A stretch of DNA of 22,551 nt from a virus. The notes under the pieces are model-generated. The model saw only the letters and a program-made list of their open reading frames with translations. It ran no database searches and was not told the DNA's origin. Position numbers and translations under genes: made by a program. Position 1 is the stretch's first letter. Every line of letters starts with the position of its first letter. Location of the stretch: IMG/VR virus record IMGVR_UViG_3300022745_000148, positions 1-22,551 of that record; one strand, given 5' to 3'. Of this stretch, positions 5,591 to 18,029 are shown one piece after another.

Positions 5591-6337
5591 TTACTTCACT
5601 CGACCTCCCGCATACGCAGCTTCACGGGCACGTTGAAAGGCAGGGTCATTCCACTTGGCCTTTGCAGTAGGATCACCAGCAATTGCACGACGCTGTAGGT
5701 CGATGAAGTCTGCTCGGGAGTACGTCTTTTCAACGTCACCGCCACGAGTCGAGGCTCCTTCGAGGATACCGTCCTTTTCCTGCTGTCGCTTCTTGGTCTT
5801 GCTCAGCTCTTTGGCTGCTGCCAGATCCTGCTTCTTCTCTTCCCAGAGACTCCACAGGGAGGTTGCAGCTTCGTAGTTACCGTTGTTAGCAGCGGTGCCT
5901 AGAGCCGTACGGACCTTATTCGACTTGATCCAATCAGCAAATTCCGGGTCTTCGATGTCTTTCTTATAGTTGGGATAGGTCAGTTCAAACTCCCTCTGGG
6001 AGAGATCCCGCTCAAGGCGGTCCACTCGTTCAAGGGTCTTTGAGACTGTAGGACTATCCGACACAGCCCGTTCTAGTACGTCATCGGGATTAGTGAGCAG
6101 TTCGTCAGTAGTGACGGGTTTCCGCTCATGCCGAGGCACGTCCTGTTTGTTTCGTTCTAGTCCCAGAAGCTGGTCCGCGATCTGCCTTGCCGCCCCAAGC
6201 TCGTTAGCAATCCGGGAGCGATCCCGTTCTGCTTCCATGTGCATCTTGGCTACGTCCTCAAGGGACTTACCTCGATACTTCTCGGGGAGTTCATTCTCGA
6301 TCTGGTCGTTCTGGTCCTGCGAATCCAATTCAGACAT
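5591..6337 (-). CDS. Capsid scaffolding protein
   Basis: 248 aa, acidic and highly charged, starting MSELDSQDQNDQIENELPEK then YRGKSLEDVAKMHMEAERDR. Long helical charged segments (RVDRLERDLSQREFELTYPN; EEKKQDLAAAKELSKTKKRQ) and a basic C-terminus ending AYAGGRVK are typical of podovirus scaffolds. In these the C-terminal helix-turn-helix binds the coat protein. The gene lies directly before the major capsid gene (gap 21 bases), the standard position. The start overlaps closely with the preceding 37-aa gene (TAA-TA-ATG). No protease motif is seen, so it is probably a reusable scaffold rather than a self-cleaving one. Confidence 0.88.
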   Translation of the reverse strand: MSELDSQDQNDQIENELPEKYRGKSLEDVAKMHMEAERDRSRIANELGAARQIADQLLGLERNKQDVPRHERKPVTTDELLTNPDDVLERAVSDSPTVSKTLERVDRLERDLSQREFELTYPNYKKDIEDPEFADWIKSNKVRTALGTAANNGNYEAATSLWSLWEEKKQDLAAAKELSKTKKRQQEKDGILEGASTRGGDVEKTYSRADFIDLQRRAIAGDPTAKAKWNDPAFQRAREAAYAGGRVK

Positions 6338-6339
6338 TA

Positions 6340-6453
6340 TTAGTTTCCTAACCTAAAGTAAGTTCCCTGCCCACGATAGTGTGGGTTATAGAGAGATAGA
6401 CCTGCCGCTTTAGGAAAGACGGTTGTAGATCTAGTCTGGAGAAGGTTACTCAT
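6340..6453 (-). CDS. 37-aa conserved-position small protein, unknown function
   Basis: The frame reads MSNLLQTRSTTVFPKAAGLS followed by LYNPHYRGQGTYFRLGN. The start at 6453 is chosen because ATG AGT AA overlaps the stop of the upstream zinc-ribbon gene by 8 nt, a typical coupled junction. The longer open frame to 6588 would run entirely inside that gene. The stop is two bases before the scaffold ATG, so the gene exactly fills the gap. No membrane helix or known motif. Packed position and a polar, aromatic C-terminus suggest a minor head protein or assembly factor, but this is a guess. Confidence 0.55.
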   Translation of the reverse strand: MSNLLQTRSTTVFPKAAGLSLYNPHYRGQGTYFRLGN

Positions 6454-6709
6454 CGTAATGAGCTTTACCCTTCTTATGATGTTCTCTTCGGGTGCGTTCC
6501 CATTTATCCACCGCCGTGGGGAAAGAGCCATCAAGTCCAAGTCGCGGGTCCAGACGGGGCGCCGAAACTTGCCGTATCGCCTTCGCATTGCACTCAGGGC
6601 ACGGAGCCCGGAAGATATTGCGATAGACTAATTCTTCAAAGATGTTCCCGCATTCGGGACACTCAAAATCAAATAAAATCCTACTCGTCGGCTGAGACAC
6701 TTGCTTCAT
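6446..6709 (-). CDS. Small zinc-ribbon protein
   Basis: 87 aa. Two CxxC knuckles, C17-P-E-C20 and C37-P-E-C40 (DFECPECGNIFEELVY; APCPECNAKAIRQVSAP), make a FmdB/rubredoxin-like zinc ribbon. A basic tail follows (KWERTRREHHKKGKAHYDE). Such ribbons occur in many phage head-gene clusters between portal and scaffold; exact role unknown. It might bind DNA or RNA or help head assembly. The start overlaps the upstream gene by 29 nt and its end overlaps the 37-aa gene by 8 nt. AGAGG lies just upstream of the ATG, though spacing is short. Confidence 0.75.
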   Translation of the reverse strand: MKQVSQPTSRILFDFECPECGNIFEELVYRNIFRAPCPECNAKAIRQVSAPRLDPRLGLDGSFPTAVDKWERTRREHHKKGKAHYDE

Positions 6710-6941
6710 CTTCCTCTTTCAGAACGTGCTCCAGCATCGTGTACATAGTCAGGAAGTCGTTATAGGTCAGAATCCTTCCCTGCGCCACCCTGAGTACATC
6801 ACCATCTGTAGTCGTGGGGTCAACTAGTGCAGACTTGATCTGCTCTACCTTCTCCCGCATATCGTTCTCTAGGTCTTTCCAGCCGGGCGTATTCACGGTT
6901 TCCCAGATACGCGCCAGCTTTTCAGCCGTCTTGTCGTCCAT
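6681..6941 (-). CDS. 86-aa acidic helical protein between portal and scaffold, unknown function
   Basis: Starts MDDKTAEKLARIWETVNTPG, continues WKDLENDMREKVEQIKSALV, and ends in an acidic tail LKEEDEASVSADE. Predicted mainly helical, no cysteine pairs and no membrane segment. It follows the portal gene with a gap of 6 bases and overlaps the zinc-ribbon gene by 29 nt. Short helical proteins in this slot are common in podovirus head clusters and may be portal-associated assembly proteins. I do not recognise a named family. Confidence 0.65.
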   Translation of the reverse strand: MDDKTAEKLARIWETVNTPGWKDLENDMREKVEQIKSALVDPTTTDGDVLRVAQGRILTYNDFLTMYTMLEHVLKEEDEASVSADE

Positions 6942-8987: not shown

Positions 8988-10280
8988 TTAGAATCCAATT
9001 ATGTCGTCAAGTACGTCATCCGAGCCCTTGATGGACTCAGGATCGAAGTACGAGGTAAGGGCCAACTGGTCGATGTACGCCACCGCATCCAGAAGGTCGT
9101 CGTGAGCTAGGGACGAAGGGAAGTCCGCAGCCTGTTTCACAAATCGTTTAGTCCATTCTCCATCATTCAGGGTGATCCGGCCTTTCTCGGCTCGGCCTTG
9201 GAGGGCCCAGCGGATTCGATCAGCCTTCTTTTGATTACCGTGTGTGAGTTCACGGACGACGTAGTAGCACTGAAGTCGCCCCATTTCATCTTCGAGATAG
9301 GGCATAACGGCGTTCTTTGCCATCCCACGCTCGATACCAACGGCCACAGGACGGTACTTTCGATAAGCTTGCATGAGTTCAAGGGCCGTCCGTCGTACAT
9401 CCCACTGCCCATGGATGATGTCCTTAACGTACCACCCCTCGATACCCGCCTTAACAATCGCAATGGCTGACTCATCCCGAATTTTGAGTTCTTTTCGCGT
9501 GAGTGATCCAGCATTAGAAAACCCAGCCAGATCAACGGCCATGTAGTAATCACCATCAACGGGTTCCACATCGCTGTGCTTCCACCATTTGGCGTTGAAA
9601 ACAGACCCCTGAGCCGTAGCAAAGGAGGCCTCGTATTCCTGAGCGAAGTCCACCGAGGAGAGCTGGTTCTTGGCCTCCATAACGTCACCCTTATCTAGGG
9701 TGGGGTTATCTAAGGTCGTGAACTGCCATGCTTCCCACATCGGAAGACCCGCTGCCTTAGCTTCGCAGAAGGTATCGAAGAAGTGATTCTCGCCTTCTGG
9801 GGTCCCGATGAATAGCGCGTCACCCTCTACGTCCGTCAGGGCAGGACGTACAATTTTGGTCCAGACCTCGGGCTTCATAAAGGCATATTCGTCCATTACG
9901 ACGAAATGATATCCGAGTCCACGCAAGGAATTAGGATCATCTGCACCTTTAATGATGATCTTGCGTCCATTTATCAGGGTGATAGTGGCACTATTTTCGT
10001 GTGTCTTGGCGATCAAAGGACCACCAAGAAACTGCAATAGATCCCAAATAATACGCTTGGCCTGCTCGAAAGTAGGCCCAACGTAGTAGATGGGCTTTTG
10101 TGAAACGTCGTAGACCTTGCCACTGAGCCCTGTGTGCGTGTCTTTAGCTCCGTACATCAGCATAAGCATCGCAGCAAGGTACGACTTACCAAACCGGCGT
10201 CCTGCGGCAACTACCTTGAAACGAGCACTAGAGTCGTAGATAATCTGCTGGGCAGGGTGAAAATGAAAATTAAGTTCCAT
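8988..10280 (-). CDS. terL: Terminase large subunit (packaging ATPase and nuclease)
   Basis: 430 aa. Walker A at residues 27-33 (GRRFGKS), Walker B with D130-E131 (HFVVMDEYA), and coupling motif at about 158-163 (IGTPEG) form the ATPase. The RNase H-like nuclease has D250 (AVDLAG), E317 (VGIERG) and D394/D395 (AHDDLLDA). All key residues are present, so it should be active. It cuts concatemers and pumps DNA through the portal encoded next. Its ATG shares one base with the stop of the upstream repeat-protein gene (TGATG). A run of decoration-like genes separates it from the small-terminase candidate at 15642-16058. Confidence 0.94.
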   Translation of the reverse strand: MELNFHFHPAQQIIYDSSARFKVVAAGRRFGKSYLAAMLMLMYGAKDTHTGLSGKVYDVSQKPIYYVGPTFEQAKRIIWDLLQFLGGPLIAKTHENSATITLINGRKIIIKGADDPNSLRGLGYHFVVMDEYAFMKPEVWTKIVRPALTDVEGDALFIGTPEGENHFFDTFCEAKAAGLPMWEAWQFTTLDNPTLDKGDVMEAKNQLSSVDFAQEYEASFATAQGSVFNAKWWKHSDVEPVDGDYYMAVDLAGFSNAGSLTRKELKIRDESAIAIVKAGIEGWYVKDIIHGQWDVRRTALELMQAYRKYRPVAVGIERGMAKNAVMPYLEDEMGRLQCYYVVRELTHGNQKKADRIRWALQGRAEKGRITLNDGEWTKRFVKQAADFPSSLAHDDLLDAVAYIDQLALTSYFDPESIKGSDDVLDDIIGF

Positions 10281-11599
10281 CAGGGCTCGACTACTTCAAC
10301 CACTGGCAGGTGGCCGTCGTCGTCTGTTCTCCACTTCTTGGCGTCAGGGGTACTGACAAGTACAATCGGAATATAGTCGGTCCAAGGCACTAGTCCCGTA
10401 TTGGAACTGAGGGTCTTGACTCCCAAGGCACCTATATCGTCGTATCGGTTAACCTCAATAGAGGTCGGGAAGTTAACCTTAACTGGGATATAGTCAACCC
10501 ACTTGGTCTTACCAGTTGGGGAGACAGCGTAGATCACCTTCCTTATCTGGGCATGGATCACAGAACCATTAGAAGCGGAGAGGGTCACAGTCTGCCCATT
10601 CAGGGTATAAGTTCCCTGCTGGGCTACGAGAATAAGCTGTCGGGTAGCAGCAAGGGTTCCTACGGAGCCGGTAGCCTGTACACCAGCTATGGTGGTACTG
10701 AAGGCAGAGGCTACAGCCCCGAGCTGCCCAGTTCCGGTAACCCCAGAGAGTCCGGTAGAGATAGACGGTACCAGAGTACCGAGACCACCAGAGCCCTGCA
10801 CACCATTGAGAGAGACTGTTACGTCACTTCCAGTGGTTACGTTACCTAGGGCGCCAGTACCAACTATACCGACTAGGGCTAGGGCTACTGACTCGGAGAG
10901 GGAACCAATCTGACCGGTACCAGTGATGCCTACGAGAGCATACGAGATACTCGGCACTAAGGTACCCAGAGCACCAGAACCAGAGACCCCCGACACGCCC
11001 ACCGAGAAGGAGGGAGTAAGCGTGCCGAGAGACCCAGTACCCGTCGTAGAGGTCAGGGGAAGGCTGGAGGAATAGCCTATAGACCCCACACTACCAGTAC
11101 CAGAAACATTGGAGAGGGTAGCAGCTATTGCCGCCCCAACGGTTCCTAGAGCCCCTGTGCCTGCTACGCCCGTGAGGGAGAGGGTTAGGTTACCTCCAGC
11201 AGTTACAGTACCTAGAGCACCAGTACCCGTAACGCTAAGGAGGGGAATCGAATATGCAGGTACCAGAGTACCCACAGAGCCCGTACCATTAACCCCGGAG
11301 AGAGCCAAGGAGAGTGCTGGAACTAAGGTTCCCACAGATCCCGTACCGGTTACCGAGGTAACCCCAACTGTCCTATTAGGAGCCAGAGTACCTAGGGAGC
11401 CCGTACCACTAACACCAGAGAGGTTAACAGTGATGTTAGGACTGCCTCCACCGTCCCCGAGGAGACCGATGGCGGGTAGGAAGGCTGCCGTTTTAGCGTA
11501 CGCATTGATTAGAGTTAGCGTACCAACAGAACCAGTAGCACTAACGCCGGTCAGTGTTACGTTTACATTTTGTAGATTCTGTCTAAATAGAAGCAGCAT
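10280..11599 (-). CDS. Repeat protein with fourteen G-x-G-T-G-type units of about 20 residues
   Basis: 439 aa. Fourteen copies of a core like GVSGTGSLGTL recur about every 20 residues from about residue 10 to 345, with occasional 22-residue spacing. The residues between cores alternate hydrophobic and small (VPALSLALSGV), which suggests a regular beta-solenoid or beta-fibre. The C-terminal 95 residues are not repetitive and contain two W-[VT]-D-Y-I-P motifs (KWVDYIPVKV; PWTDYIPIVL). It is encoded directly before TerL among decoration-type genes, so it is probably a virion surface or head-fibre protein. I know of similar Gly/Thr-rich repeats in environmental phage structural proteins, but no established function. 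Confidence 0.7.
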   Translation of the reverse strand: MLLLFRQNLQNVNVTLTGVSATGSVGTLTLINAYAKTAAFLPAIGLLGDGGGSPNITVNLSGVSGTGSLGTLAPNRTVGVTSVTGTGSVGTLVPALSLALSGVNGTGSVGTLVPAYSIPLLSVTGTGALGTVTAGGNLTLSLTGVAGTGALGTVGAAIAATLSNVSGTGSVGSIGYSSSLPLTSTTGTGSLGTLTPSFSVGVSGVSGSGALGTLVPSISYALVGITGTGQIGSLSESVALALVGIVGTGALGNVTTGSDVTVSLNGVQGSGGLGTLVPSISTGLSGVTGTGQLGAVASAFSTTIAGVQATGSVGTLAATRQLILVAQQGTYTLNGQTVTLSASNGSVIHAQIRKVIYAVSPTGKTKWVDYIPVKVNFPTSIEVNRYDDIGALGVKTLSSNTGLVPWTDYIPIVLVSTPDAKKWRTDDDGHLPVVEVVEP

Positions 11600-13486: not shown

Positions 13487-13945
13487 TTAGGCAATACGAA
13501 CGAGGGCAGTGCCCGCGGCATTCGTAGGCATCGTGAGGGTCAGGTTGCCCGCAGTGATCGTCTGGGAACCAAACGTAAACACACCCACCGCATTCTTACC
13601 GGCAGCCGTGTTATTGTAGATCAGGAGGGTATCAAACGCTGTAGCGAGGGTAACCGTGGTCCACACGAGGTTGGCAGTCGGGGTCGTATAGCCCGTAGCC
13701 GAGCCCGTAGTCGGGGCGTTCCAGCTACCAACCGTCTGACCAGCAGCCGTATAACCTGTACCCGAGACCTCGGACGTGGCCGAATACGCAGTCGTGGCTG
13801 CACCGAGGGTACCAGACGCCAGATAGAGGGCGCCAAAGAACGTGTCGGCCGTCGTGGCACCACGAACTACCGACGTACCAAAAGCATGGAGACCGTTAAG
13901 GATGTCCTGCTTGAAAGAAGTGCACATTGCCTGCGTATTAGCCAT
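13487..13945 (-). CDS. Structural protein, GTGYTA family (decoration or tail-associated)
   Basis: 152 aa: MANTQAMCTSFKQDILNGLH, then FFGALYLASGTLGAATTAYS and EVSGTGYTAAGQTV. This order (C-T-S-F-K-x-x-x-L near the start, F-x-x-A-L-Y, Y-S-A-T-x-E-V-x-GTGYTA) is common in short phage structural proteins. It recurs in weaker form in the 141-aa protein at 14728-15153. C-ending codons dominate, as in the capsid gene, suggesting abundant product. No enzyme motif. Probable virion surface protein. Confidence 0.72.
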   Translation of the reverse strand: MANTQAMCTSFKQDILNGLHAFGTSVVRGATTADTFFGALYLASGTLGAATTAYSATSEVSGTGYTAAGQTVGSWNAPTTGSATGYTTPTANLVWTTVTLATAFDTLLIYNNTAAGKNAVGVFTFGSQTITAGNLTLTMPTNAAGTALVRIA

Positions 13946-14428: not shown

Positions 14429-14743
14429 TTAGTGGAAAAATCTCTTAAAGAAGGTGGAAATACGGGGGAAACGAGAAACTTTAACCGGAACAGCCATTTC
14501 AACCCTAGCTCCCCGGTGCTGGAGGTCTACAATCTGATTCTTGAGCCGGATGTAGTTATATTCACTACGAATCTTGTCAATTTCAGAGGCTAGACGGTGG
14601 GTTTCGTGCTTGTAGACCTGAAGTTCTAGGTTGGCTTTGTCCAGTTTCTTCTGGAGAGGGGCCAATTTCTGGTCAATATGGAGCTTCTCAAGGTACAAAG
14701 ACTTGAAATGCGCCTGCTCTTCTGGGGTTAGGTTAGCTGCCAT
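14429..14743 (-). CDS. 104-aa coiled-coil protein
   Basis: MAANLTPEEQAHFKSLYLEK, then LHIDQKLAPLQKKLDKANLE and HETHRLASEIDKIRSEYNYI: a continuous heptad pattern from about residue 12 to 75, followed by a basic tail (SRFPRISTFFKRFFH). The start overlaps the upstream gene by 16 nt. Coiled-coil proteins of this size in late clusters may be assembly chaperones or internal head proteins. The basic Phe-rich C-terminus could contact DNA or membrane. Function unassigned. Confidence 0.65.
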   Translation of the reverse strand: MAANLTPEEQAHFKSLYLEKLHIDQKLAPLQKKLDKANLELQVYKHETHRLASEIDKIRSEYNYIRLKNQIVDLQHRGARVEMAVPVKVSRFPRISTFFKRFFH

Positions 14744-15153
14744 AGTCCGTTCGTTGAGTCAATAGAGATTGTGAAGGTCTCAGTTACGTTAAGAGTAAGG
14801 GAAACCCCATAGTCAAACCAGCAGACTAGAGGCTTCAGAGGGGAGGTGGCCGTGGCGTTGTAGATTACAGCATACCGAAACGGGCCAATGGATCCCCCAG
14901 TAGCAGTCAGGATGTCATTGGCAAAGACGATCTTACTTGTACCAGTAGCTGTGGTAAGAGAACCACTGGTTAGAGCAAGACCGCCTGCCGTATACCCATT
15001 GCCTGCTGCAATTTCCACGATGTCCGAAAACACCGTGTTGGAAGTGGCCGGAGCAGTGTTCGTAAGACACACATTGAACGTATGGGTAGCCCAGTTATGG
15101 ACCGCCCGATCGAGCTGGTTTGTGTAGTCGTTGAACTTCTGATAGGCAGCCAT
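14728..15153 (-). CDS. Structural protein, GYTAGG family
   Basis: 141 aa: MAAYQKFNDYTNQLDRAVHN, WATHTFNVCLTNTAPATSNT, then EIAAGNGYTAGGLALTSGSL and a beta-rich C-terminus (FRYAVIYNATATSPLKPLVC; LNVTETFTISIDSTNGLWQL). The F-x-V-x-L-T-N...GNGYTAGG core is the same scheme as the 152-aa protein at 13487-13945 and is widespread in phages as a short virion protein. It overlaps the downstream coiled-coil gene by 16 nt, so the two are likely coupled. Confidence 0.72.
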   Translation of the reverse strand: MAAYQKFNDYTNQLDRAVHNWATHTFNVCLTNTAPATSNTVFSDIVEIAAGNGYTAGGLALTSGSLTTATGTSKIVFANDILTATGGSIGPFRYAVIYNATATSPLKPLVCWFDYGVSLTLNVTETFTISIDSTNGLWQLT

Positions 15154-15493: not shown

Positions 15494-15649
15494 TTACGAC
15501 CCAACCTTCTGATCTTTGCCGCGCTTGCACGCGTTCGGCACAACGCCGATAGTGCCGCCAATCTTGGCGGGCTTATAAACATTATTAGAACTTGCCTTAC
15601 TCGGGGTGCTGACCGGCTGAACTCGGCCACCCTGCTCTTTATTAGCCAT
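15494..15649 (-). CDS. 51-aa basic, Gly-rich small protein
   Basis: MANKEQGGRVQPVSTPSKAS, SNNVYKPAKIGGTIGVVPNA, ending CKRGKDQKVGS. The ATG overlaps the stop of the small-terminase candidate by 8 nt, and its own stop is two bases before the next ATG, so it fills the interval exactly. Basic and probably disordered except for a short beta segment. It may bind nucleic acid or act as a minor structural peptide; unrecognised. It is short and easily missed. Confidence 0.6.
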   Translation of the reverse strand: MANKEQGGRVQPVSTPSKASSNNVYKPAKIGGTIGVVPNACKRGKDQKVGS

Positions 15650-16058
15650 TTGGTGTTTCCTTAAATTCGCCTTCTATTGCACCCGTCTCTAGAGGGGATG
15701 TGGAGATAACTGTCTTCTCCCGAGGCATTTGGTTAATGTTAATCGTGATCTTGTCGTCTGCCGACTTAGTATCATCCTTGTCCGAGGTCTTCGAGATATG
15801 AAGCTCAAGGAGTAGCTTAATCATACCCGGATGGCCCTTGAGAGCCATCGCAAACGCTTTATCTAGGACCGCATCCATTCGGGGAGCGGCCTGTTCTCGA
15901 AGAGCTTGCTCAAGCTCTAGCTTGAGAAGCGTAATCCGATTCTTAGACCCTTTCGGCCTTCCGAGGGGATTTGCCACCTGTCCGGGCTGAAACCGGCTGA
16001 CCGGGCGGTTTGTAGAACTCCCACTCTCGGACACACTGTTCGAGGGTAGCTCGTTCAT
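15642..16058 (-). CDS. DNA-packaging candidate with PGQ-NP-GRPKGSKN motif (possible small terminase)
   Basis: 138 aa from the internal ATG at 16058 (MNELPSNSVSESGSSTNRPV). The frame is open to 16145 (167 aa), but the extra N-terminus is low complexity. The motif SRFQPGQVANPLGRPKGSKN followed by RITLLKLELEQALREQAAPR is the AT-hook-like N-terminal signature of a phage family (DUF5681 type) that often occupies the small-terminase position. A helical domain (KAFAMALKGHPGMIKLLLEL) follows, then an acidic linker. It probably recognises or binds DNA at packaging initiation; inferred. It overlaps a well-formed 70-aa ORF by 116 nt in another frame. Confidence 0.6.
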   Translation of the reverse strand: MNELPSNSVSESGSSTNRPVSRFQPGQVANPLGRPKGSKNRITLLKLELEQALREQAAPRMDAVLDKAFAMALKGHPGMIKLLLELHISKTSDKDDTKSADDKITININQMPREKTVISTSPLETGAIEGEFKETPNG

Positions 16059-16155
16059 TGTAGTCAAAAAGGGAGGAGTCTCTGGGGTCAACTCCGTAGG
16101 CTTCACAGACTTTTCCGAGGAGTTTGATCGTTTCGACATAAGCATGCTTGTTCAT
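15943..16155 (-). CDS. 70-aa protein overlapping the packaging candidate
   Basis: MNKHAYVETIKLLGKVCEAY, GVDPRDSSLFDYNERATLEQ, CVREWEFYKPPGQPVSARTG, ending PRKAERV. Its first 52 residues look like a genuine soluble alpha-helical domain. The last 18 are encoded opposite the conserved GRPKGSKN motif of the overlapping gene in another frame, so they may be overprinted. The start lies 42 bases after the previous gene. Unknown function. Confidence 0.55.
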   Translation of the reverse strand: MNKHAYVETIKLLGKVCEAYGVDPRDSSLFDYNERATLEQCVREWEFYKPPGQPVSARTGGKSPRKAERV

Positions 16156-16197: not shown

Positions 16198-16413
16198 TTA
16201 TTCATCGTGTGTAGCCGGAGTAGGGTTAGTGTCATGCCCGACTCTCGGGATCGTATGAGCGCCTACCTGCTCTTTAATCCAAGAGTCTCCTTTGTGTACT
16301 CGGACACTCTGGTTATCAGGTCGTCGAGTAATCACATCAGGATTGGCACCATCGTATCGACTATAACTAATATCGGTATTGGCGTCTGTATTTGGTTTCT
16401 TTGGTGCTGGCAT
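16198..16413 (-). CDS. 71-aa protein with shared C-terminal peptide HDTNPTPATHDE
   Basis: MPAPKKPNTDANTDISYSRY, DGANPDVITRRPDNQSVRVH, KGDSWIKEQVGAHTIPRVGH and the final peptide. Hydrophilic and probably largely disordered. The last 12 residues (60-71) are identical to those of the 65-aa protein at 16819-17016, although 8 of the 12 codons differ synonymously. AGGG lies 7 nt before the ATG. The rest of the two proteins does not align convincingly, so the shared ending is probably a functional tag. Function unknown. Confidence 0.68.
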   Translation of the reverse strand: MPAPKKPNTDANTDISYSRYDGANPDVITRRPDNQSVRVHKGDSWIKEQVGAHTIPRVGHDTNPTPATHDE

Positions 16414-16416
16414 ATA

Positions 16417-16815
16417 TTACCCTAAAAGTTCCGTACTACACTCACCACAAGCAACCATACTTACTGTACGTCCATTACTAAGCTTGCGGTTGGTTCTAAA
16501 TAGCTTGGTAGCTCCACAGGAGGGACAAGGGGGTCCTTGATCGACCGGAGGGGGAGGAGGTACCGGGGGAGGTTCCGGGACTGCCTGTAGGCGTCTAGGA
16601 GCTTCTGTGCGGTGTGCCCGCTCTGGATCAGATTCGACCAGTACAGGTCGAGGATTCTTTCCCGTGAGGATGGAGTGAGCGGAGGTAAGGGAGTCGAGGG
16701 TTTTCTGTGCTTCATCTAGGTCTTTAGCTACACTTAGGAGTAGTTCTTTGTACTCGTCTACCCTTCGGGTGTAGTCACCAATCTCCTCTTGGAGACCGGT
16801 CAGGATTTGTTCCAC
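16417..16815 (-). CDS. 132-aa coiled-coil protein with C-terminal zinc ribbon
   Basis: Starts at GTG (16815). Residues 1-50 form a coiled coil (LQEEIGDYTRRVDEYKELLL; DLDEAQKTLDSLTSAHSIL). A proline-rich linker spans about 80-95 (EPPPVPPPPPVDQGPP), followed by a zinc ribbon with C97-P-S-C100 and C123-G-E-C126 (PCPSCGATKLFRTNRKLSNG; MVACGECSTELLG). The ribbon suggests nucleic-acid or protein binding, with oligomerisation through the helix. It sits between the two genes that share the C-terminal peptide, an arrangement that may mean a three-protein functional unit. Family not recognised. Confidence 0.7.
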   Translation of the reverse strand: MEQILTGLQEEIGDYTRRVDEYKELLLSVAKDLDEAQKTLDSLTSAHSILTGKNPRPVLVESDPERAHRTEAPRRLQAVPEPPPVPPPPPVDQGPPCPSCGATKLFRTNRKLSNGRTVSMVACGECSTELLG

Positions 16816-16818
16816 GTA

Positions 16819-17016
16819 TTACTCGTCGTGTGTCGCGGGGGTTGGGTTGGTATCATGGGAAGCCCGTACCCATCCAGCCGCATCAGGACCATAGGAGTCG
16901 TTGATGGTTTTGATGGTTCGGGGGTCCACTGAGGTGGGGCCATTGATCCGGGGTCCTTGGCTCTTCTTAGTCTTTAGACCCATAGACTCCCGGAGGGTCT
17001 TGCCGTACTCAGCCAC
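16819..17016 (-). CDS. 65-aa protein with shared C-terminal peptide HDTNPTPATHDE
   Basis: Starts at GTG (17016): MAEYGKTLRESMGLKTKKSQ, GPRINGPTSVDPRTIKTIND, SYGPDAAGWVRAS and the tag at 54-65. Basic, probably flexible N-terminal part; acidic C-terminus. An in-frame ATG at 16983 is an alternative start. The tag is identical to that of the 71-aa protein at 16198-16413. The start lies 5 bases after the 60-aa gene. Function unknown. Confidence 0.65.
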   Translation of the reverse strand: MAEYGKTLRESMGLKTKKSQGPRINGPTSVDPRTIKTINDSYGPDAAGWVRASHDTNPTPATHDE

Positions 17017-17021
17017 CGCAG

Positions 17022-17204
17022 TTAGCTGTGTCTAGTCGAGGGAAGCTTATGGGACTTCATCTGGGAAGGACCATAGTTGAGCTTAGGCTTACTAGCATTA
17101 TGACCACCGGGGATCGAGGCGTACACAACGGCTGCCGGATTGTAGCTGAATCCGCCCGGCGCAGCGGGGCCCATTGCTGGGGATAGATCTTTCTGCTTAC
17201 TCAT
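17022..17204 (-). CDS. 60-aa protein, first gene of the late leftward operon
   Basis: MSKQKDLSPAMGPAAPGGFS, YNPAAVVYASIPGGHNASKP, ending MKSHKLPSTRHS. The ATG at 17204 has GGAG 7 nt upstream, better than the TTG at 17210 that would add two residues. Pro/Gly/Ala-rich, no membrane helix, no catalytic motif. It is the most upstream gene of the late unit, directly below the AT-rich leader, so it is probably the first translated. Unrecognised. Confidence 0.6.
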   Translation of the reverse strand: MSKQKDLSPAMGPAAPGGFSYNPAAVVYASIPGGHNASKPKLNYGPSQMKSHKLPSTRHS

Positions 17205-17215
17205 ACACAAACTCC

Positions 17216-17480
17216 AGACGGATTACCATTAAGCAACTTTCCGTTAAGTAACAGTTTTAAGTAACTAAACTAAACCAAAACTTAACTTATTCAACGTAAA
17301 GTTACTTAGACAACTCTCGACCCCCTAAAGTTCCGTAAATTTGAAAATAAATTTCAAATATTACATAACTTTGTTACTTATAATATAAATATCTTCTTTT
17401 TTTCTATAATTTAATAACCACTCCAGAATCTCGGTTACTTCGTAACACGTCCCTCACTGTCGTTCGTTACTCTCGATTCT
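17216..17480. promoter_or_regulatory. AT-rich leader/upstream region of the late operon with AAGTAAC/GTTACTT repeats
   Basis: This region holds no credible gene. It is strongly AT-rich, especially 17331-17420. The 7-bp word AAGTAAC occurs at 17246 and 17259 (13 bp apart), and its complement GTTACTT at 17301, 17373 and 17434. A hairpin-type repeat ATTTGAAA/TTTCAAAT lies at 17339-17359. I could not find a convincing host -35/-10 pair facing the late genes, so a phage-encoded factor may be needed for late transcription. Confidence 0.55.
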
Positions 17481-17934: not shown

Positions 17935-18029
17935 TTATGCACAGGTTATACACAAGTAATACACAGGCTTGTGGTATAAATGACACGTGTAGAATCAATG
18001 GGTTAGCCTGTGGATAAGTCTGTGGATAA
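17935..18029. other. DnaA-box cluster (candidate replication origin)
   Basis: Three boxes on the plus strand are phased 11 bp apart: TTATGCACA (17935), TTATACACA (17946) and TAATACACA (17957, one mismatch). Two perfect TTATCCACA boxes on the minus strand lie at 18009-18017 and 18021-18029. The palindrome ACACGTGT (17983-17990) lies between the two groups. This density and phasing is what host-DnaA-dependent origins show. It sits in the divergent non-coding centre of the genome segment, next to AT-rich DNA. Replication function is inferred. Confidence 0.65.

Follow-up and report, generated by a model that had tools for sequence, protein, structure and literature searches.

Two small proteins encoded in the window, by which we mean the whole 22,551-base stretch of DNA that was analysed, an IMG/VR virus record of an uncultured phage, end in the same twelve residues, HDTNPTPATHDE, followed directly by TAA. 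In the two copies of this tail 8 of the 36 nucleotides differ, so that 8 of the 12 codons are different, yet every difference lies in a third codon position and is synonymous, with none at the 24 first and second positions. The two tagged proteins, called here tagA and tagB, and their tails are located as follows.

16198..16413, minus strand: tagA, 71 aa; ATG start preceded by an AGGG Shine-Dalgarno-like sequence (TTAGGGTAATATATG)
16201..16236, minus strand: tail copy A, HDTNPTPATHDE codons, GC3 4/12
16819..17016, minus strand: tagB, 65 aa; GTG start 5 nt past the p62 stop, no clear Shine-Dalgarno sequence
16822..16857, minus strand: tail copy B, HDTNPTPATHDE codons, GC3 8/12

One copy reads CAT GAC ACT AAC CCT ACT CCG GCT ACA CAC GAT GAA, and the other CAT GAT ACC AAC CCA ACC CCC GCG ACA CAC GAC GAG. 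The original prediction, that a 71-aa and a 65-aa protein share an identical 12-residue ending in which eight of the twelve codons differ synonymously, was thus confirmed at these coordinates on the minus strand and codon by codon.

Codon divergence under an identical peptide

When the 12-mer was back-translated and searched for in the window, exactly two copies were found (16201-16236 and 16822-16857, both on the minus strand), each abutting a stop codon, against 0.00 expected from 100 dinucleotide shuffles of the window. A chance match is ruled out by these two copies against none in the shuffles. Four tail codons are identical between the copies, where 4.83 would be expected under independent draws, as computed with the codon usage of the window's longer genes; a codon identity at this level implies that the synonymous sites are saturated. 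An assembly duplicate or a recent copying event is ruled out by the eight differing codons and the random-level codon identity, and a DNA or RNA element as the conserved unit is ruled out because every difference is in a third position. The earlier claim that neither a recent duplication nor chance would produce such a pattern, and that the peptide is selected while the DNA drifts, holds on these counts, the synonymous sites being saturated without any amino-acid change. Selection on the peptide rather than on the DNA or RNA, with the codons left to drift, is well supported, as judged from one sequence pair.

Taken the other way round, the codon differences argue strongly that tagA and tagB are translated in this frame, or were for a long time. 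This is of value because no homologues were found for either ORF and no clear ribosome-binding site precedes tagB. The GC3 of each tail resembles that of its own gene (4/12 in tail A and 21/58 in the tagA body; 8/12 in tail B and 33/52 in the tagB body), and the two bodies differ from each other (Fisher P 0.007). Small as the tail counts are, this suggests that each tail has long been part of the gene that carries it.

Outside the tail the two proteins seem to have little in common. BLASTP of tagA against tagB reported only the last 15 residues (RVG or RAS plus the tag), of which 13 are identical; both have an Arg three residues ahead of the tag, and the remainder is dissimilar, in agreement with the expectation that the proteins are otherwise unrelated in sequence. 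The bodies are basic (pI 9.3 for tagA and 9.9 for tagB) and the tail is acidic, the charges at pH 7 being -3.1 for the tail and +1.7 and +3.5 for the two bodies. AlphaFold2 gave low-confidence beta strands for tagA and low-confidence short helices for tagB, and the tail had no predicted secondary structure in either model, with a pLDDT of about 42-57 there; these are single-sequence models made with no alignment, so they are weak evidence of disorder and too weak to decide the fold. No family was found for tagA or tagB in Pfam, PHROGs or PADLOC, apart from one sub-significant PHROG match of tagA (E 0.044), and tblastn of both proteins in phages and plasmids returned nothing better than an E of 1.

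The gene cluster and the rest of the window

On the minus strand the genes run in the order p62, tagB, a 132-aa gene and tagA, and then the gene of a DUF5681 protein (16145-15642). The gaps from p62 through tagA are only 3-5 nt, making a tight cluster, and the TerL, portal and major capsid genes of a tailed phage lie downstream of it; the capsid gene of the window matches phage major-head families. The neighbours of the tagged genes are as follows.

17022..17210, minus strand: p62, a 62-aa ORF heading the cluster; alternative ATG at 17204, no tag, no family match
16417..16815, minus strand: 132-aa gene between tagA and tagB; probable coiled-coil N-terminus, CPSC...CGEC zinc-ribbon-like C-terminus
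15642..16145, minus strand: DUF5681 protein, a possible small terminase, next downstream; Pfam PF18932 (E 7e-13), no tag, orthologue in the nearest relative

The nearest relative found by terminase, L001 (78% identity, 46.7 kb), keeps both genes that flank tagA. Its orthologue of the 132-aa protein, at 5644-6039, is 43% identical over the zinc-ribbon end and retains all four Cys, and its DUF5681 gene shows 52% identity. The 65-aa ORF that lies between these two genes in L001 is dissimilar and lacks the tail, and upstream of the 132-aa gene of L001 nothing corresponding to p62 or tagB was found. Thus both tagA and tagB are absent from L001 despite the kept flanking genes, implying that the conserved neighbours do not need them. 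From this comparison tagA and tagB seem to be accessory genes added to a conserved gene neighbourhood. The original prediction described the gene between them as encoding a coiled-coil/zinc-ribbon protein; the zinc-ribbon-like end stood, its four Cys being kept in L001, whereas the coiled coil is weakly supported, by a sub-threshold Pfam match. An alignment search of IMG/VR found no further relatives of the zinc-ribbon protein. The tagB, 132-aa and tagA genes share one common frame, with TAA-TAY-start between them, and read-through across the three was considered and set aside, because the 132-aa gene of L001 is a free-standing ORF.

Several other features of this region were seen. A 70-aa ORF (15943-16155, minus strand) overlaps, in a different frame, the part of the DUF5681 gene that encodes its S/T/P/E-rich N-terminus, and a similar overlapping ORF is present in L001, 6256-6534 over 6305-6802 (30% over 43 aa, BLASTP E 2e-7 in a two-sequence comparison); the overlapping ORF and the DUF5681 gene are possibly a conserved dual-coding pair. 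Just upstream of the p62-tagB cluster, an AT-rich 195-nt stretch (17246-17440) holds five AAGTAAC heptamers in both orientations, and the window as a whole has eight against 2.4 expected. This cluster of heptamers, which is not repeated in L001, is a candidate operator or set of iterons. Four DnaA-box-like sites (TTATNCACA; two on the plus and two on the minus strand) fall within 95 nt, at 17935-18029, in a 1.8-kb gene-poor region between two divergent gene blocks. The whole window would be expected to hold 0.45 such sites and none of 100 shuffles reached four, and we regard 17935-18029 as a candidate replication origin. Among the other minus-strand genes, a 439-aa protein encoded before TerL (10280-11599) consists largely of GVxGTGxxGTL-type repeats, and only its last ~85 residues match L001; a 330-aa protein (1301-2293) has internal repeats, with SPTLVTPALGTPVSGNLANC occurring twice. 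Two proteins within 1.7 kb (13487-13945 and 14728-15153) match phrog_644, a PHROG of unknown function, and are by this assignment an apparent paralogous pair.

Search for further bearers of the peptide

Recurrence of the ending on unrelated phage proteins, which the original prediction had named as support for a tag, was not seen on phage or bacterial proteins in IMG/VR, in the species genomes or in the record itself. The 12-mer, a stop-anchored 9-mer and a relaxed form had no match in IMG/VR, the last nine residues of the tail had none in about 85,000 species genomes, and the 22.5-kb record holds no third bearer of HDTNPTPATHDE; for these negatives, the searched collections may omit the source genome or its near neighbours. 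When HDTNPTP alone was searched for in IMG/VR and HDTNPTPxxxxx-stop in the genomes, 24 matches were obtained, none of which repeats the tail. In all 24 the following residues differ and the frame continues well past the length of the tag; in one of them (L104) the stored stretch ends before the frame does, and in the species-genome match to HDTNPTPxxxxx-stop the 'stop' is TGG, which the pattern allows. No mention of the HDTNPTPATHDE string was found in the literature searched. An FmdB-like protein with the ending HYDE was considered as a weaker third copy and dropped, as the ends of its homologues vary freely.

We also compared the ends of 7,942 ORFs of any kind from 105 other records (about 0.9 Mb in all), and found no further pair that differs elsewhere but ends in the same 12 residues. 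Four pairs agreed in at least 8 of the 12 end residues, one being a 28-residue identical suffix and the other three agreeing at 8, 9 and 10 of 12. The peptide is therefore an orphan in the searched collections, and the pattern rests on one pair.

Possible roles of the shared tail

That the tail is a docking, targeting, processing or modification tag, as originally proposed, is plausible. To HDTNPTPATHDE-COOH being a shared C-terminal docking motif for one common acceptor we give about an even chance. Strict conservation limited to the terminal peptide, on bodies that differ, points to a common binding site: an acidic and flexible tail would be carried by two small, basic and unrelated proteins, and both tails would fit the same acceptor site. 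This fit would fix every residue of the tail and leave the codons free to be randomised. With a virion or packaging component as the acceptor, tagA and tagB would both be brought to one assembly by their tails, much as the diverse internal proteins of T4 are by their capsid-targeting sequence (CTS). It is in favour of docking that the tail is acidic and, in the weak single-sequence models, without predicted secondary structure, as expected of a linear motif. Against it, there is one sequence pair, with no relative and no third bearer in the record, IMG/VR or the genomes; identity at 12 of 12 residues is unusually strict, many docking motifs being shorter or more tolerant; and the record spans only 22.5 kb.

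We infer the binding, the single acceptor and the identity of the acceptor alike. As the cluster headed by these genes continues into those for DUF5681, TerL, portal and capsid, the acceptor would most plausibly be a virion or packaging component, an assignment made from gene position that we consider doubtful. The 132-aa protein is another candidate acceptor, although L001 keeps that gene without tagA or tagB.

Other explanations of the tail can be considered. It might be a structural or metal-binding tail rich in His, Asp and Glu, through which the two proteins, as ancient paralogues with diverged bodies, bind each other or a common metal. The 12 residues include two His, two Asp, one Glu and one Asn, the Arg three residues before the tag is common to both, and the two genes flank a single gene, the layout expected after a segmental duplication; but the bodies have no detectable similarity, their predicted secondary structures differ (helices versus strands, at low confidence) and no known metal-binding family was recognised, so that we think this unlikely. 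Basic bodies and a tail charge of -3.1 would also suit an acidic C-terminal tip on nucleic-acid-binding proteins, which, in the manner of phage SSBs, would vie with nucleic acid for the basic body and contact replication or packaging partners. This is rather improbable, since no OB fold or other DNA-binding family was detected, the neutral residues (T, P, N and A) are as fixed as the charged ones, which is more than charge alone would demand, and the tail lacks the terminal aromatic residue with which SSB tips end. The exact C-terminal position in both proteins is what one would see if a host or phage enzyme recognised the tail as a signal for processing, modification or turnover, but we recognised no protease or modifying enzyme among the genes tested, the record has no further bearer, and the acidic end is unlike ssrA-type degrons, which are hydrophobic; such a signal is accordingly quite improbable.

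Arrest peptides are expected to be constrained in their amino acids near the C-terminus of a short ORF, and the tail is a peptide-level constraint at just such a place; moreover, the 132-aa gene starts 3 nt past the tagB stop with no independent Shine-Dalgarno sequence beyond the tail codons. We nevertheless find it very improbable that a nascent chain pauses the ribosome at the end of the small ORF to set translation of the next gene, as the tail has no RAPP or poly-proline motif, the next start is 3 nt away for tagB versus over 40 nt for tagA, a common RNA fold at the two tail ends is not evident, and both ORFs encode bodies of 50+ residues. Two reports describe arrest peptides as acting as nascent chains encoded upstream of the regulated gene (PMC7897499, PMC10951299). 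It is scarcely credible, finally, that the tail is functionless, left by partial duplication, gene conversion or an assembly error, with codon differences that are accidental or anti-recombination. Only one pair is known, and codons would diverge faster if repeat-mediated loss of the 132-aa gene were selected against, but there are eight third-position changes against 0 of 24 at first and second positions, with codon identity at the random level. In a duplicated read or a recent copy the codons would still agree, under neutral drift the residues would change, and recoding alone would still need the peptide to be kept.

Going beyond the docking motif itself, the tail might be a kind of phage address tag not described before, a strict C-terminal 12-mer that sends several unrelated small proteins of one phage to a single acceptor; this we put forward only speculatively, and further bearers would then lie on the part of the genome outside the 22.5-kb record. 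Were this so, a single peptide would mark a co-working set among uncharacterised small phage proteins, the acceptor would be reachable by a simple pull-down, and the tag would be a C-terminal counterpart of the T4 CTS. The within-genome comparison of protein ends, together with a synonymous-saturation score, could be applied to all phages and would find such tags in a homology-free way.

Among known systems, the T4 CTS is N-terminal and is removed by the prohead protease. The peptide described here is C-terminal and shows no N-terminal cleavage-site arrangement, and no prohead protease was recognised among the window genes scanned. The likeness is that a terminal peptide is common to otherwise dissimilar small phage proteins, the short peptide of the T4 CTS being the sole conserved part of diverse small internal proteins (PMC3012670). 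Encapsulin cargo likewise carries short C-terminal targeting peptides, which bind an HK97-fold shell (PMC8346489), but encapsulins are cellular compartments with enzyme cargo, whereas the present peptide is on two uncharacterised small phage proteins, and the neighbours here, a zinc-ribbon-like protein and DUF5681, differ from the encapsulin gene context. The acidic C-terminus on a basic protein recalls the tips of phage and bacterial SSBs (PMC5686142); here, in contrast, no OB fold was detected with Pfam or PHROG, there is no terminal aromatic residue, and the neutral residues are strictly identical. With the SecM, MifM and RAPP arrest peptides (PMC10987492, PMC10951233) the tail shares peptide-level constraint and a short ORF upstream of other genes, but it has no known arrest motif and occurs in two copies with differing downstream contexts. 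The arrangement is of a known kind, that of shared terminal targeting peptides, in no known family.
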